Both the position numbers and the translations under genes were made by a program. A stretch of DNA of 64,000 nucleotides from Candidatus Uhrbacteria bacterium (lineage in GTDB: Bacteria; Patescibacteriota; Patescibacteriia; 2-12-FULL-60-25), in assembly GCA_020854265.1 (NCBI GenBank), contig JADZFU010000004.1, forward strand, positions 62,001 through 126,000, given 5' to 3'. Positions 14,345-21,449 of this stretch are shown in pieces. The stretch's first letter is position 1. Every line of letters starts with the position of its first letter. The notes beneath the pieces were generated by a model. It was not told the origin of the DNA. It worked only from the letters and a program-made list of their open reading frames with translations, and did not search any database.

Positions 14345-14872
14345 ATGATTTCATGGAGCCGAAGCTACATCCTTCAAGGCGCGACAAGAAATTGGTTTGT
14401 AGGGATTGTGTTTTTTCTCGTCGGAATCGGGTTCGGCATCGGAGGATTCTTTATTCCGCTTGAACCGGCTGACGAGATTGCGCGCTGGGCATTGTGGTTT
14501 ATGGCTGCCGTGTTTGGATTCATTGGGGCTGCAATCCTTCTCATGATGATACGGGGCGGAAATATCCAGGATATCAGTACGATTGGCGGTTTGATGGGCG
14601 CGCTGGCGTACGGTCTTCCATCCACATTCGCATTGCCTGTGCTGTATCTTTTGTATCAAAGTCGTCCGAATGCCGTGTATGCATCAGATGCGGTTTTTGA
14701 CACCGAACAATGGGTTTTAGGTTCGGTTTTCAGTCTGACTGGAATTTTCGTGACCTTGGCGAGCATTGCCTTGGCTCGATATCAGCTACGCACAGGAAAG
14801 AGCGGTTGGAATTGGTCCTGGACATCCGATGGCGGCGTCAAGCAAGACGATTCCGATTCAGAATCCAGCTAA
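14345..14872 (+). CDS. Four-helix membrane protein, unknown function
   Basis: The 175-residue protein has hydrophobic segments at about residues 17-37, 47-67, 80-105 and 122-145, and a Ser/Asp-rich acidic tail. It starts 2 bp after the lipoprotein stop. Its last 35 bases overlap the convergent ATPase-like gene. No family is recognised. Confidence 0.6.
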   Translation: MISWSRSYILQGATRNWFVGIVFFLVGIGFGIGGFFIPLEPADEIARWALWFMAAVFGFIGAAILLMMIRGGNIQDISTIGGLMGALAYGLPSTFALPVLYLLYQSRPNAVYASDAVFDTEQWVLGSVFSLTGIFVTLASIALARYQLRTGKSGWNWSWTSDGGVKQDDSDSESS

Positions 14873-16484
14873 TAACACCTGCCTGCAGCAGTCTTCCGGC
14901 GGCGATAAACATTGCGCCAAGCCAACCGAATCCGCTTGCCACAAGGAGGAGAGCTACTGTTACCAACCAAAATACCGATGCGTAGCGGAATCCGGAAAGC
15001 CAGGTTTGTGCCGTTCTAATAATTATCGGCAGAGCAGTCAGGTGATCCGAAAGAAGGATAATGGCATTGTTGTCGCGGATAGCAGCGGTGCCTGTCGGAT
15101 CGGGAATAATGCCCAGATCCGCCCGGAGCATTGCCTGCGCATCGCTTACTCCGTCTCCGATGAGCGCGGTCGGTATTCGTTTGGACAGCTGGTCCAATTC
15201 GCGCCAAACATCGTCTGGTCGAGCCGCAGGATGGAATTGTTCTATACCCCACGCTTCGGCTTGGCGTCCTGTCTGCTCGATTGGGTCGGCCGATACGTAG
15301 ATTTTTTCCACAATTCCGTTTTTTTTGAGCGCTTCGGAGATGCTCCAGCTATTTTCTTGCGGGCGTATGCTGATGCGCAGACGTCCTACGCATGAGCCAT
15401 TAACCGCGACGTAATATTCTTGCATGCGGTCACCGGATTCTGCATCTTTCATTTCTCCATGCCAGCTTTCGTGGATCGCAACCCCGCGCTCAGTAAAGAG
15501 CGCTGCGTTTCCGACCAGAATCTCCCGATCTGAGATACGTACCCAAATCCCGCGTCCGGGATATACATGGAAGCGTTCAGGATCGGCTACTGCGCCGATT
15601 CTCCGGACGGCCTGACGATACAGCAGACGGCCGATGGCGTGCTCGGAGTGTTTCTCAGCCACCGCTACGGATTCCCAAACAAAATTTTCGGTTACAGCGG
15701 GTATGCGGTCCAGACTGTGCAAAGTGTATGTTTCAAGCGGATTCAGCTCGCTTTTATGAAAAACAAGTCCGCGAATTTCAGCGAGCTGTTCAAGTTCGGC
15801 CGCGGTTTTTAGCACGGCACCATTTTGTTGGATGCGGCGTATAGAGGAGCGAATCCAAGCGGCGATTTTTGCGGATAACTCGGCTCCTCCGCCGGCTATC
15901 AATATGCTGCCGGCGACGAGCGGGGATTGGTTCATCCACCCAACAGCGATGGCCGTACCTGCCGCTATCCCGAATACGGTAAACCCGCATGTTTGGATCC
16001 ATTGTTCGGTCTTTGTGTCGAATCCCGGTGTCGAGAGGAGAAGCTCGTTTCTTCCGAGAATGCTCTCTTCTCCACCGCGCATGACACGGACGACTGCCGA
16101 ACCGGCTTTGCACATACTGCCTCCAAACACGACATCCCCGGCACGGCGCTCGCGTATTTTTGTTTCTCCGCTCACGGCGGATTCATCAACAAGAATAACT
16201 CCTTGCAGAATGCGTCCATCCGCCGGAATGCAGGAACCGTCTTTTATCGGTATGGATTCGCCCATACGCGGAGCCGGTTCGGATACGCAGGAGGTGTCCG
16301 CATGTTCTTTGGGCGGGCGGATGAACCAAGCAAGGATCCATCGTGCGGCCAGAATTGATCCGGCGATCCCGGCTATATTCCAAGATCCGGACCAAGCGAT
16401 CAGCCCAATACCTGCAGCATCGAAAACCGCCTGTGTGGCTGACAGGGGGATTCCGACATTGCCTTGGACGGAGCGCGAACGCAT
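14838..16484 (-). CDS. P1B-type ATPase homolog lacking the catalytic aspartate (pseudo-pump)
   Basis: The 548-residue protein keeps the P-type ATPase layout: an actuator domain with IPADGRILQGVILVDESAVSGET (about 86-108), membrane helices, an N-domain with SEHAIG (280-285) and GRGI, and a hinge GDGVSD (443-448). Key residues are lost: the phosphorylation motif DKTGT is HKSEL (His243), the transmembrane CPC metal motif is GGGAEL (198-203), GDGxND is GDGVSD and TGD is SAD. The frame is intact, so it is probably expressed as a non-pumping relative. The start at 16484 avoids overlap with the divergent gene. Confidence 0.75.
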   Translation of the reverse strand: MRSRSVQGNVGIPLSATQAVFDAAGIGLIAWSGSWNIAGIAGSILAARWILAWFIRPPKEHADTSCVSEPAPRMGESIPIKDGSCIPADGRILQGVILVDESAVSGETKIRERRAGDVVFGGSMCKAGSAVVRVMRGGEESILGRNELLLSTPGFDTKTEQWIQTCGFTVFGIAAGTAIAVGWMNQSPLVAGSILIAGGGAELSAKIAAWIRSSIRRIQQNGAVLKTAAELEQLAEIRGLVFHKSELNPLETYTLHSLDRIPAVTENFVWESVAVAEKHSEHAIGRLLYRQAVRRIGAVADPERFHVYPGRGIWVRISDREILVGNAALFTERGVAIHESWHGEMKDAESGDRMQEYYVAVNGSCVGRLRISIRPQENSWSISEALKKNGIVEKIYVSADPIEQTGRQAEAWGIEQFHPAARPDDVWRELDQLSKRIPTALIGDGVSDAQAMLRADLGIIPDPTGTAAIRDNNAIILLSDHLTALPIIIRTAQTWLSGFRYASVFWLVTVALLLVASGFGWLGAMFIAAGRLLQAGVISWILNRNRLA

Positions 16485-16499
16485 CGGTACTATTCTAAC

Positions 16500-16724
16500 A
16501 TGTCCAGACATCACTTCATCCCGGATTGGCGAAAAGTCATTGCGTATTTACGCGATCCAAAATCCGATTGGAAACCCAAGGTAGCGCTCATGCTGGCGCT
16601 TCTGTATCTGCTTTGGCCAATCGATTTGTTTCCGGATATCGCGCCCTTGCTTGGCTGGCTCGATGATTTGGGCTTTGGAGCCCTCGCTGTCGGTTATCTG
16701 ATCAGCAAGTCTTCTAAAACTTAA
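16500..16724 (+). CDS. DUF1232 (YkvA-like) membrane protein
   Basis: The 74-residue protein has the DUF1232 signature ALLYLLWPIDLFPDIAPLLGWLDD, shown in parts: LLWPIDLFPD then GWLDDLG. One or two short hydrophobic segments flank it. The family has no established function that I can state. It starts 15 bp from the divergent ATPase-like gene, and its stop overlaps the convergent peptidase gene. Confidence 0.8.
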   Translation: MSRHHFIPDWRKVIAYLRDPKSDWKPKVALMLALLYLLWPIDLFPDIAPLLGWLDDLGFGALAVGYLISKSSKT

Positions 16725-19053: not shown

Positions 19054-19686
19054 CTAGCAGGTTTTCCGGGCAACGACCAACCGGTTCTTTTTATTCTTGT
19101 CAAAGCCGATTTGGTCGATGGCGAGGCAAGGATGCGTCCACAGGGCTTGCCAATCTTCCTCGGTAAATAGATGCACGAAGCGTTTGGTCTCCGCACCCTC
19201 TGCTTTCCAATCGATCCATACGTCGCCTCGCCAACCGTCGGCAACCGGTTCGTATGCATCTGGCGACAGGTGCCAAGCCGTGACCACTAACAACCCTCCG
19301 ATTTTGGTTATGCGAACCAATTCTTCGACAGCCGCTTTTTGATCAGGGACAGGAATATGGTGGAAGACGGCAAGACAGGTTATGATATCCGCAGATTCAT
19401 CTGCGGCAGGCAGTTTCGGGAGAGTTCCGGGAAATATCGAGGGGTTGTTTCCGCGCAACGAGGAAGATGGTTCAAAACCGGTATAGTTGACGTCGGTTGG
19501 GAGGAATTCAGCCAAACGTCCATTGCCAGCACCCACATCAACCAAGACCATACCCGGCTCGCAGGCTTCGTAAATCAGATCAAATACATCCCAATGCTGA
19601 TGCCGTGTACGAGAAAAGGCCTCTCCGTGATTTTCGTAGAAATCGGCTACACTTTGGGCCAAATCCTTGGCAAGACGCTTATCCAT
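19054..19686 (-). CDS. Trm9/ABH8-like tRNA wobble-uridine carboxymethyl methyltransferase (predicted)
   Basis: The 210-residue class I SAM methyltransferase matches Trm9 in order: FSRTR followed by HWDVF near residue 24, motif [10 protein letters not shown] (49-57), [15 protein letters not shown] where Trm9 has a DV-x-x-PW segment, and RFVHLF where Trm9 has RYYHLY. Trm9 methylates cm5U34 to mcm5U34 in tRNA, after Elp3 makes cm5U. An Elp3 gene starts 17 bp away on the other strand, which strongly supports this role. The Trm112 partner is not seen. Confidence 0.7.
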
Positions 19687-19703
19687 GCTAGGCTCATGTC
19701 ATC

Positions 19704-21350
19704 ATGGATTATTCCCGTCGTCGAGTGGCTCAGCCGCGTCCTCCAGCTGCCTTGATCAACAAGGTGGCTGCGGAGTGTATGGAGCTCGAGGCACCGACCG
19801 AAGAATTGCTTCGAAAAATTATTCGAAAGCACCTTACGGGGACGCCATACCGATTCCCTCGAATTCCAGAGCTCGTGAAAGCTATCGGCGGCAAGCAGAC
19901 GCTTTTCCGCCAAAAGAAAACAAGGACGGATTCCGGTGTGGCCCCGATTACGCTTTTGACCAAACCGTATGCCTGTCCGGGCAAGTGCGTGTACTGCCCG
20001 ACGGAAGTCCGCATGCCGAAGAGCTATATTTCTTCCGAACCGGCAGCGGCGCGTGCGCTGCGCCTGGGATTTGATCCGCATCGTCAAGTAACGCAACGCG
20101 TCCAAGCGCTCGAGCGGAATGGGCATGAAGCAAAAAAAATCGAACTCATCATCAAGGGCGGGACATGGTCAGCGTATCCGTGGGCATATCGAAAATGGTT
20201 TATCAAGCGGTGTTATGACGCAGCAAACCATTTATCGCAGCATGATAATCGAAAAAAATATCAGACGCTGAACCAAAGTCAGAAAGCAAATGAAACAGCC
20301 GAGTATCGTGTAATCGGTCTCACGATCGAGACGCGGCCGGACTGGATTAATCCAAAAGAGATTGAACGTTTACGCGAGCTCGGAGTCACACGTGTCGAGC
20401 TCGGTATCCAAGCGCTGGATGACAAGATTTTGGATTTAACGCAGCGCGGTCATACGGTAGCCGATGCGATACGCGCGACCATCCTGCTTAAAGCTGCTTC
20501 ATTTAAAACGGATTATCATTTTATGCCGGGACAGCCCGGTTCTACCGCTGCACATGATGTCGACATGTACCGGCAAATGTTTGATGATCCGGCTTTCCGT
20601 CCCGACATGGTAAAACTGTATCCTTGTGTTGTTTTACCGAATGCAGAGCTTCAAGGTTGGTATGAACGCGGAGAGTTTACGCCGCTGCAAGGCGAGGAGC
20701 TAATCGAAACCATGATCCAAATCCAAGCGTTGACGCCTGCGTATTGCCGCGTTCCGCGCTTGATCCGCGACTTTCCATCCACGGATATTTCTGCGGGAAA
20801 CAAAGTGACAAATTTGCGCGAAGAAATCGAGCGCCGTATGCGAGAGCGCGGTATCAAGCTCTGGGATCTGCGCGCCCGTGAAGCCGGACACATGCCGACA
20901 CTTGCTCCTGATGTCGAATTGAAACTCTTTGTCGAAGAGTATGACAATGCGGGAGGAAAGGAATTATTTTTGAGCTTTGAAGATTCCGAGCGAACTACGG
21001 TCATGGCATTTTTGCGTTTACGCCTGCCAAATCATGAATATATTCCGGAGGATGAAAAGACAGCAAAGATGTTAGCAGAAGTACGCAAGCTGCTCCCGGA
21101 ATTAAAGGGCGCCGCTTACATCCGAGAACTGCATACGTATGGCCAAGCATTGGCGCTTGGACAGGCAAGAGGCGATGCGGTACAGCACAAAGGGCTTGGA
21201 AAAAAACTCATGATGGAGGCCGAGAAAATAGCCAAGAAACACAAGTACAAATATCTGTCCGTGATTTCCGGGATCGGTGTGCGCGAGTATTACCGTAAGG
21301 CGGGCTTCAAGTTACAGGGGAGCTATATGGTGAAAAAATTGAAGGCATGA
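19704..21350 (+). CDS. elp3: Elp3-like tRNA uridine C5-carboxymethyl-forming enzyme
   Basis: The 548-residue protein is a full Elp3. The N-terminal tRNA-binding part (LLRKIIRKHLTGTPYRFPRI) precedes the radical-SAM cluster C91-x3-C95-x2-C98 in CPGKCVYCPTEVR, then IIKGGTWSAYP, GLTIETRPDW, RVELGIQALDD and YPCVVL. The C-terminal acetyltransferase domain has IRELHTYG, QHKGLGKKLMMEAEKIA and SGIGVREYYRKAGF. Elp3 uses acetyl-CoA and SAM to build cm5U at tRNA position 34. The Elongator partners of eukaryotes are absent, as in other bacterial and archaeal Elp3s. It is divergent from a Trm9-like gene. Confidence 0.93.
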   Translation: MDYSRRRVAQPRPPAALINKVAAECMELEAPTEELLRKIIRKHLTGTPYRFPRIPELVKAIGGKQTLFRQKKTRTDSGVAPITLLTKPYACPGKCVYCPTEVRMPKSYISSEPAAARALRLGFDPHRQVTQRVQALERNGHEAKKIELIIKGGTWSAYPWAYRKWFIKRCYDAANHLSQHDNRKKYQTLNQSQKANETAEYRVIGLTIETRPDWINPKEIERLRELGVTRVELGIQALDDKILDLTQRGHTVADAIRATILLKAASFKTDYHFMPGQPGSTAAHDVDMYRQMFDDPAFRPDMVKLYPCVVLPNAELQGWYERGEFTPLQGEELIETMIQIQALTPAYCRVPRLIRDFPSTDISAGNKVTNLREEIERRMRERGIKLWDLRAREAGHMPTLAPDVELKLFVEEYDNAGGKELFLSFEDSERTTVMAFLRLRLPNHEYIPEDEKTAKMLAEVRKLLPELKGAAYIRELHTYGQALALGQARGDAVQHKGLGKKLMMEAEKIAKKHKYKYLSVISGIGVREYYRKAGFKLQGSYMVKKLKA

Positions 21351-21365
21351 TAGAACATGCCGCGT

Positions 21366-21449
21366 GCCCGAGTGGCGGAATGGTATACGCAAGGGACTTA
21401 AAATCCCTGGCCGAAAGGCATGCGGGTTCGATCCCCGCCTCGGGTACCA
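21366..21449 (+). tRNA. tRNA-Leu(UAA)
   Basis: Class II tRNA with loop CTTAAAA, anticodon TAA, a long variable arm (GGCCGAAAGGCA region), T-stem GCGGG/CCCGC and encoded CCA at 21447-21449. Acceptor pairs are complete with one G-U at position 1. Confidence 0.95.

Follow-up and report, generated by a model that had tools for sequence, protein, structure and literature searches.

The window, a 64,000-nucleotide stretch of the genome of a Candidatus Uhrbacteria bacterium (contig JADZFU010000004.1), carries two divergent genes that are predicted to act on the wobble uridine (U34) of tRNAs. One encodes a class I SAM-dependent methyltransferase, the other a complete Elp3, and a tRNA gene lies just downstream of elp3. 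Open reading frames, strands and coordinates all agree with those of the original prediction, including the 17 bases between the divergent start codons. In the list below, the correspondence between methyltransferase residues and yeast Trm9 was assigned by motif, and conservation was counted over 27 relatives.

19054..19686, minus strand: class I SAM methyltransferase of 210 aa, Trm9-like; from its sequence, a candidate tRNA cm5U34 carboxyl methyltransferase
19084..19086, minus strand: N201, corresponding to yeast Trm9 N271; asparagine in 26 of 27 relatives and in Yarrowia Trm9
19171..19182, minus strand: RFVH, residues 169-172; R169 is equivalent to yeast R241 (26 of 27), V171 to yeast Y243
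19207..19227, minus strand: GDVWIDW, residues 154-160, first lid strand; D155 and W160 in 26 of 27 relatives and also in Yarrowia Trm9
19357..19362, minus strand: H109-H110 of AVFHHIP; one of the two corresponds to yeast Trm9 H115; H110 in 27 of 27, H109 in 24 of 27
19603..19617, minus strand: FSRTR, residues 24-28; R28 is the counterpart of yeast Trm9 R29; in 27 of 27 relatives and Yarrowia Trm9
19687..19703, strand not applicable: 17-base spacer separating the two divergent ATG codons
19704..21350, plus strand: Elp3, 548 aa, radical SAM and GNAT domains; predicted tRNA U34 carboxymethylation
19974..19997, plus strand: Elp3 radical-SAM cluster motif C91-x3-C95-x2-C98
21183..21299, plus strand: Elp3 acetyl-CoA site, QHKGLG (494), SGIGVREYYRK (522), active-site tyrosine Y529/Y530
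21366..21449, plus strand: tRNA-Leu(UAA), 15 bases 3' of elp3; possibly a substrate through its U34

No shared promoter was recognized in the 17-base spacer: sigma-70-like sites occur in the region at about chance level, and none of them lies at the spacer. Elsewhere in the window, a P-type ATPase-like protein with an E1-E2_ATPase domain (14838-16514, minus strand) apparently has HKSEL in place of the DKTGT phosphorylation motif and is possibly a non-transporting relative.

Elp3 scores 521 bits against the NCBIfam model TIGR01211 (cut-off 350), with both the radical-SAM and the acetyltransferase parts covered, and archaeal Elp3 structures match it at E ~1e-116. The protein is of full length and both active sites are present, as had been claimed from C91/C95/C98 and the acetyltransferase domain. 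Moreover, K145, K304 and Y529/Y530 align with the GNAT acetyl-CoA residues of archaeal Elp3; MinElp3 activity requires K150, K266 and Y517 (PMC6367351). In the window organism, Elp3 is therefore predicted to form cm5U34, as judged from its sequence. The zinc-binding linker cysteines, present in Dehalococcoides Elp3 and conserved in archaeal Elp3, are missing from the window protein, and eukaryotic Elp3 likewise lacks them.

The 210-aa methyltransferase matches only general class I families in NCBIfam and Pfam, no specific family reaching its cut-off. Scans of genome contigs and of viral contigs with the single window sequence returned generic methyltransferases only; against the PDB, this single sequence finds Trm9 second (1e-4), after B. 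subtilis YcgJ, both matches being weak. A profile was then made of 20 members, taken from matches for which resemblance to the window protein was the sole criterion. Against all PDB sequences, its first match is Yarrowia Trm9 (5cm2), at E 2.2e-27 and aligned over nearly the whole length; the second follows at E 2.3e-19, and most others cover the core only. On the controls, the profile scores 97.9 bits for Trm9, 72.3 for 3sm3, 37.5 for UbiG, 32.9 for UbiE, 26.0 for CmoA and 24.6 for BioC. CmoM is not detected by the profile, and its pairwise alignment with the window protein consists of fragments only.

Structure prediction points in the same direction. The AlphaFold model of the window methyltransferase (pLDDT 95.1) has Trm9 as its best fold match in the PDB (E 2.5e-13), as has the model of a distant relative (pLDDT 94.3; E 6.3e-16, TM-score 0.82 on the target). 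A two-stranded lid is visible in the model (strands 155-162 and 165-172), and the match to Trm9 includes it. In a tree built without the two longest unrelated branches, the bacterial methyltransferases form one clade with Yarrowia Trm9 and a haloarchaeal Trm9-like protein (support 95/83); the latter two are nested among the bacterial rows, and UbiE, UbiG, BioC, CmoA, CmoM and 3sm3 fall outside. When all outgroups are included, one long unrelated row breaks the clade, which is nevertheless not rejected (p-AU 0.32). The structure and tree of the 19054-19686 product, which the original prediction had named among its checks, thus place it on the Trm9 side and not with UbiE; membership in the UbiE, UbiG, BioC, CmoA or CmoM families is not supported by the profile scores and the trees.

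When Yarrowia Trm9 alone serves as the query, the elp3-linked methyltransferase is the best match in nearly all carriers. In the window genome, a methyltransferase fused to a Trm112 domain scores higher (27.8 bits, core only) than the window protein (22.9 bits, over a longer alignment). Because profile, fold and tree agree, this reciprocal result is read as the weakness of a single sequence in a divergent family, not as a refutation. On the evidence of sequence and model together, the 210-aa protein is a Trm9-like methyltransferase.

All the motifs that had been quoted as a Trm9 signature were found in the translation, in the same order. They are not a chance occurrence, since they fall on columns conserved over the 27 relatives, Yarrowia Trm9 and the haloarchaeal protein; the shared columns are R28, W32, H109/H110, W138, D155, W160, R169 and H172. 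N201 is conserved in the relatives and Yarrowia Trm9 and differs in the haloarchaeal protein. In yeast Trm9, the substitutions R29A, H115A, R241A, Y243A and N271A impair tRNA affinity and catalysis (PMC5372719). Four of these five positions are kept in the window protein (R28, H109/H110, R169 and N201); at the Y243 position, several relatives have a tyrosine and the window protein has a valine, V171.

The absence of this tyrosine leaves some room for a different reaction on the same tRNAs, such as methylation of another cm5U derivative, or of a base or 2'-O position in the anticodon loop, instead of the cm5U carboxylate. Other U34 methyltransferases do exist in bacteria, and a gene pairing points to a common substrate or pathway without defining the reaction itself. 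However, the equivalents of R29, R241 and N271 are retained together with the lid motifs, and the top profile and fold match is Trm9 and no other tRNA methyltransferase, so that such a reaction appears unlikely.

The gene pair was surveyed in two samples: 57 relatives, in which the methyltransferase was searched first and Elp3 second, and 286 genomes drawn evenly from the phylum, with a completeness of at least 90%. The latter contain the methyltransferase in 78 cases, Elp3 in 103 and both in 76 (Fisher p 2.5e-43, a value that ignores shared ancestry). The matched regions are at most 400 bases apart in 64 of the 76 genomes, which belong to 32 family groups, and all 64 pairs are divergent. Of the remaining 12 genomes, half have the two genes on different contigs; in the other six, the distance is 1-5 kb, and five of these pairs are divergent. 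The divergent arrangement also recurs repeatedly at the inspected loci of the relatives. The pairing is therefore not unique to the window genome, a point on which the original prediction depended.

This distribution bears on the idea that the neighbour of elp3 is an ordinary metabolic methyltransferase, placed there by coincidence or by inheritance of the gene order. Methyltransferases of class I are widespread, their core is universal, and the Pfam matches of the window protein are generic only. However, adjacent divergent pairs across 32 families, the 12 genomes that keep both genes non-adjacent and the presence of Elp3 in 76 of the 78 methyltransferase carriers make this very improbable, and the similarity extends to the Trm9-type lid and the termini, outside the core.

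Elp3 occurs without a detectable methyltransferase in 27 of the 103 Elp3 genomes, ten of them in a single family (f43); Elp3 can therefore stand alone, and in some of these lineages, modification probably ends with cm5U or continues by a different second step. Some relatives, also within the same genus, lack Elp3, the methyltransferase and MnmG. In seven relatives from various families of the class (loci L030, L032, L036, L037, L040, L043 and L046), glyA, encoding serine hydroxymethyltransferase, is found shortly 3' of elp3.

In most bacteria, the wobble U34 pathway is that of MnmE-MnmG, of which MnmG is one half. MnmG was found in none of the 57 relatives and in four of the 286 phylum genomes, none of which carries Elp3. 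The U34 thiolase MnmA, on the other hand, is encoded by 54 of the 57 relatives, including the window genome, and its presence suggests that the likely product is extended to mcm5s2U. A pair of the CmoM type (mcmo5U), or an MnmM/MnmC-like methylation of an amine on a different radical-SAM product, is hardly credible: CmoM does form a methyl ester at U34 and the radical-SAM relative MnmL weakly matches the window Elp3 (63 bits), but CmoM aligns in fragments only, escapes the profile and stands apart in the tree, Elp3, with both domains, is above its own family cut-off, and there is no MnmG to supply an amine route.

The tRNAs of the window genome with U34 comprise Lys(UUU), Glu(UUC), Gln(UUG), Arg(UCU) and Gly(UCC), the full mcm5(s2)U set, and also Leu(UAA). 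Partner tRNAs with C34 are present for the U34 boxes, a set consistent with U34 reading mainly A-ending codons. The genome also has a tRNA-Ile with a UAU anticodon (L088:1501-1577; contig C3, 103506-103579), and no lysidine synthase (TilS) above the family cut-off was found in the 57 relatives; AUA would hence be read by a U34 tRNA and not through lysidine. This use of tRNA-Ile(UAU) was considered as a speciality of the Elp3 carriers and dropped, as carriers and non-carriers both lack TilS. Genomes of about 1 Mb without MnmG and TilS are in keeping with Patescibacteria.

Known eukaryotic Trm9 enzymes require Trm112, and the system had been predicted to work without it. This stands as far as a free-standing protein is concerned: no match to the Trm112 model of this kind was found in the window genome or in almost all carriers. 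The domain itself occurs in four of the 57 genomes, each time as part of a reading frame of 325 codons or more. In the window genome, it is found at the N-terminus of a methyltransferase of 340 aa, as a zinc knuckle resembling Trm112 (Pfam Trm112p, 32.6 bits); the gene of this fusion stands beside a glycosyltransferase-like frame (L060:1489-2508; contig C4, ~187000). Since Trm112, the activator of Trm9/ALKBH8, was not found here as a free protein, the window enzyme is named Trm9-like and not Trm9. Some enzymes of the archaeal Trm112 network function without Trm112 (PMC5372719). The Elp3/Trm9-like pair probably works without Trm112, although a fused or highly diverged partner may fill its role.

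The window enzyme shares with eukaryotic Trm9 (yeast Trm9 and the methyltransferase domain of ALKBH8) the fold, the motifs, the two-stranded lid, most of the mutation-tested residues and the partnership with an Elp3 product. It differs in being bacterial, in lying back-to-back with elp3 and in the valine at the Y243 position. A parallel in gene content comes from archaea: Haloferax has an Elp3 (HVO_2888) with putative Trm9 proteins (HVO_0574/HVO_1032), also without other Elongator subunits (PMC5372719), and in Sulfolobus solfataricus elp3 and trm9 are clustered (PMC2584109). Archaeal Trm9 has been reported in some archaea only. Thiolation differs as well, being of the Tuc1/Ncs6 type in archaea (PMC2584109) and assigned to the bacterial MnmA in the window genome.

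In bacteria, the Elp3 of Dehalococcoides mccartyi is likewise a stand-alone enzyme modifying tRNA, a rare bacterial example, and the available text of that report does not mention a Trm9 partner (PMC6367351). Elp3 alone makes cm5U in archaea and probably also in bacteria (PMC13315578, PMC6367351). The bacterial MnmE-MnmG-MnmC/MnmL-MnmM pathways act on the same nucleotide and serve the same decoding role; however, they build aminomethyl side chains with unrelated first-step enzymes, and MnmG is missing in the window organism. E. coli CmoM (mcmo5U34) also forms an ester at U34 from SAM, but gives no meaningful sequence match. According to a review from 2017, bacteria carry mnm5-type wobble uridines, and relatives of the Trm9/Trm112-dependent methyltransferases were undetected there (PMC5372719). 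The modification mcm5U has been treated as a eukaryotic signature (PMC2584109), and the (c)mnm5s2U of Bacteria has been contrasted with the mcm5s2U of Eukarya (PMC5400242). In the open-access literature, no description of Elp3, of Trm9 or of the pair in Patescibacteria/CPR was found.

Taken together, the divergent pair is most likely a two-enzyme U34 pathway leading from cm5U34 to mcm5U34, with mcm5s2U formed via MnmA. The original prediction is thereby supported, with its product extended and its statement on Trm112 qualified. Elp3 would use acetyl-CoA and its radical-SAM reaction to carboxymethylate U34 at C5, and the Trm9-like enzyme would transfer a methyl group from SAM to the carboxylate of cm5U, giving mcm5U. 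Neither an Elongator scaffold nor Trm112 as a partner would take part in this route. MnmA, whose gene lies in another part of the genome, would add the 2-thio group on tRNA-Lys, -Glu and -Gln, where mcm5s2U would result, and the Elp3/Trm9-like system would substitute for MnmE-MnmG. Against this pathway speak the valine at the Y243 position, the higher score of the Trm112-fused enzyme in the window protein's own genome, the lack of a free Trm112 and the Elp3 genomes without methyltransferase.

We regard the Elp3/Trm9-like pair as a new, bacterial form of a known pathway, and an mcm5-type wobble modification, thought to be absent from bacteria, probably occurs in them. We lean, with more reserve, towards a phylum-wide bacterial cassette of Elp3, a Trm112-independent Trm9 relative and MnmA, which would make mcm5s2U and replace MnmE-MnmG, the archaeal and eukaryotic Trm9 lying inside the bacterial diversity. 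Such a two-gene system, which would need neither the six subunits of Elongator nor Trm112, would be useful for reconstituting mcm5U synthesis. The conserved pair would also explain how U34 is modified in reduced genomes that lack MnmG, of which there is a large group, and it would overturn the split between bacterial and eukaryotic wobble uridines.
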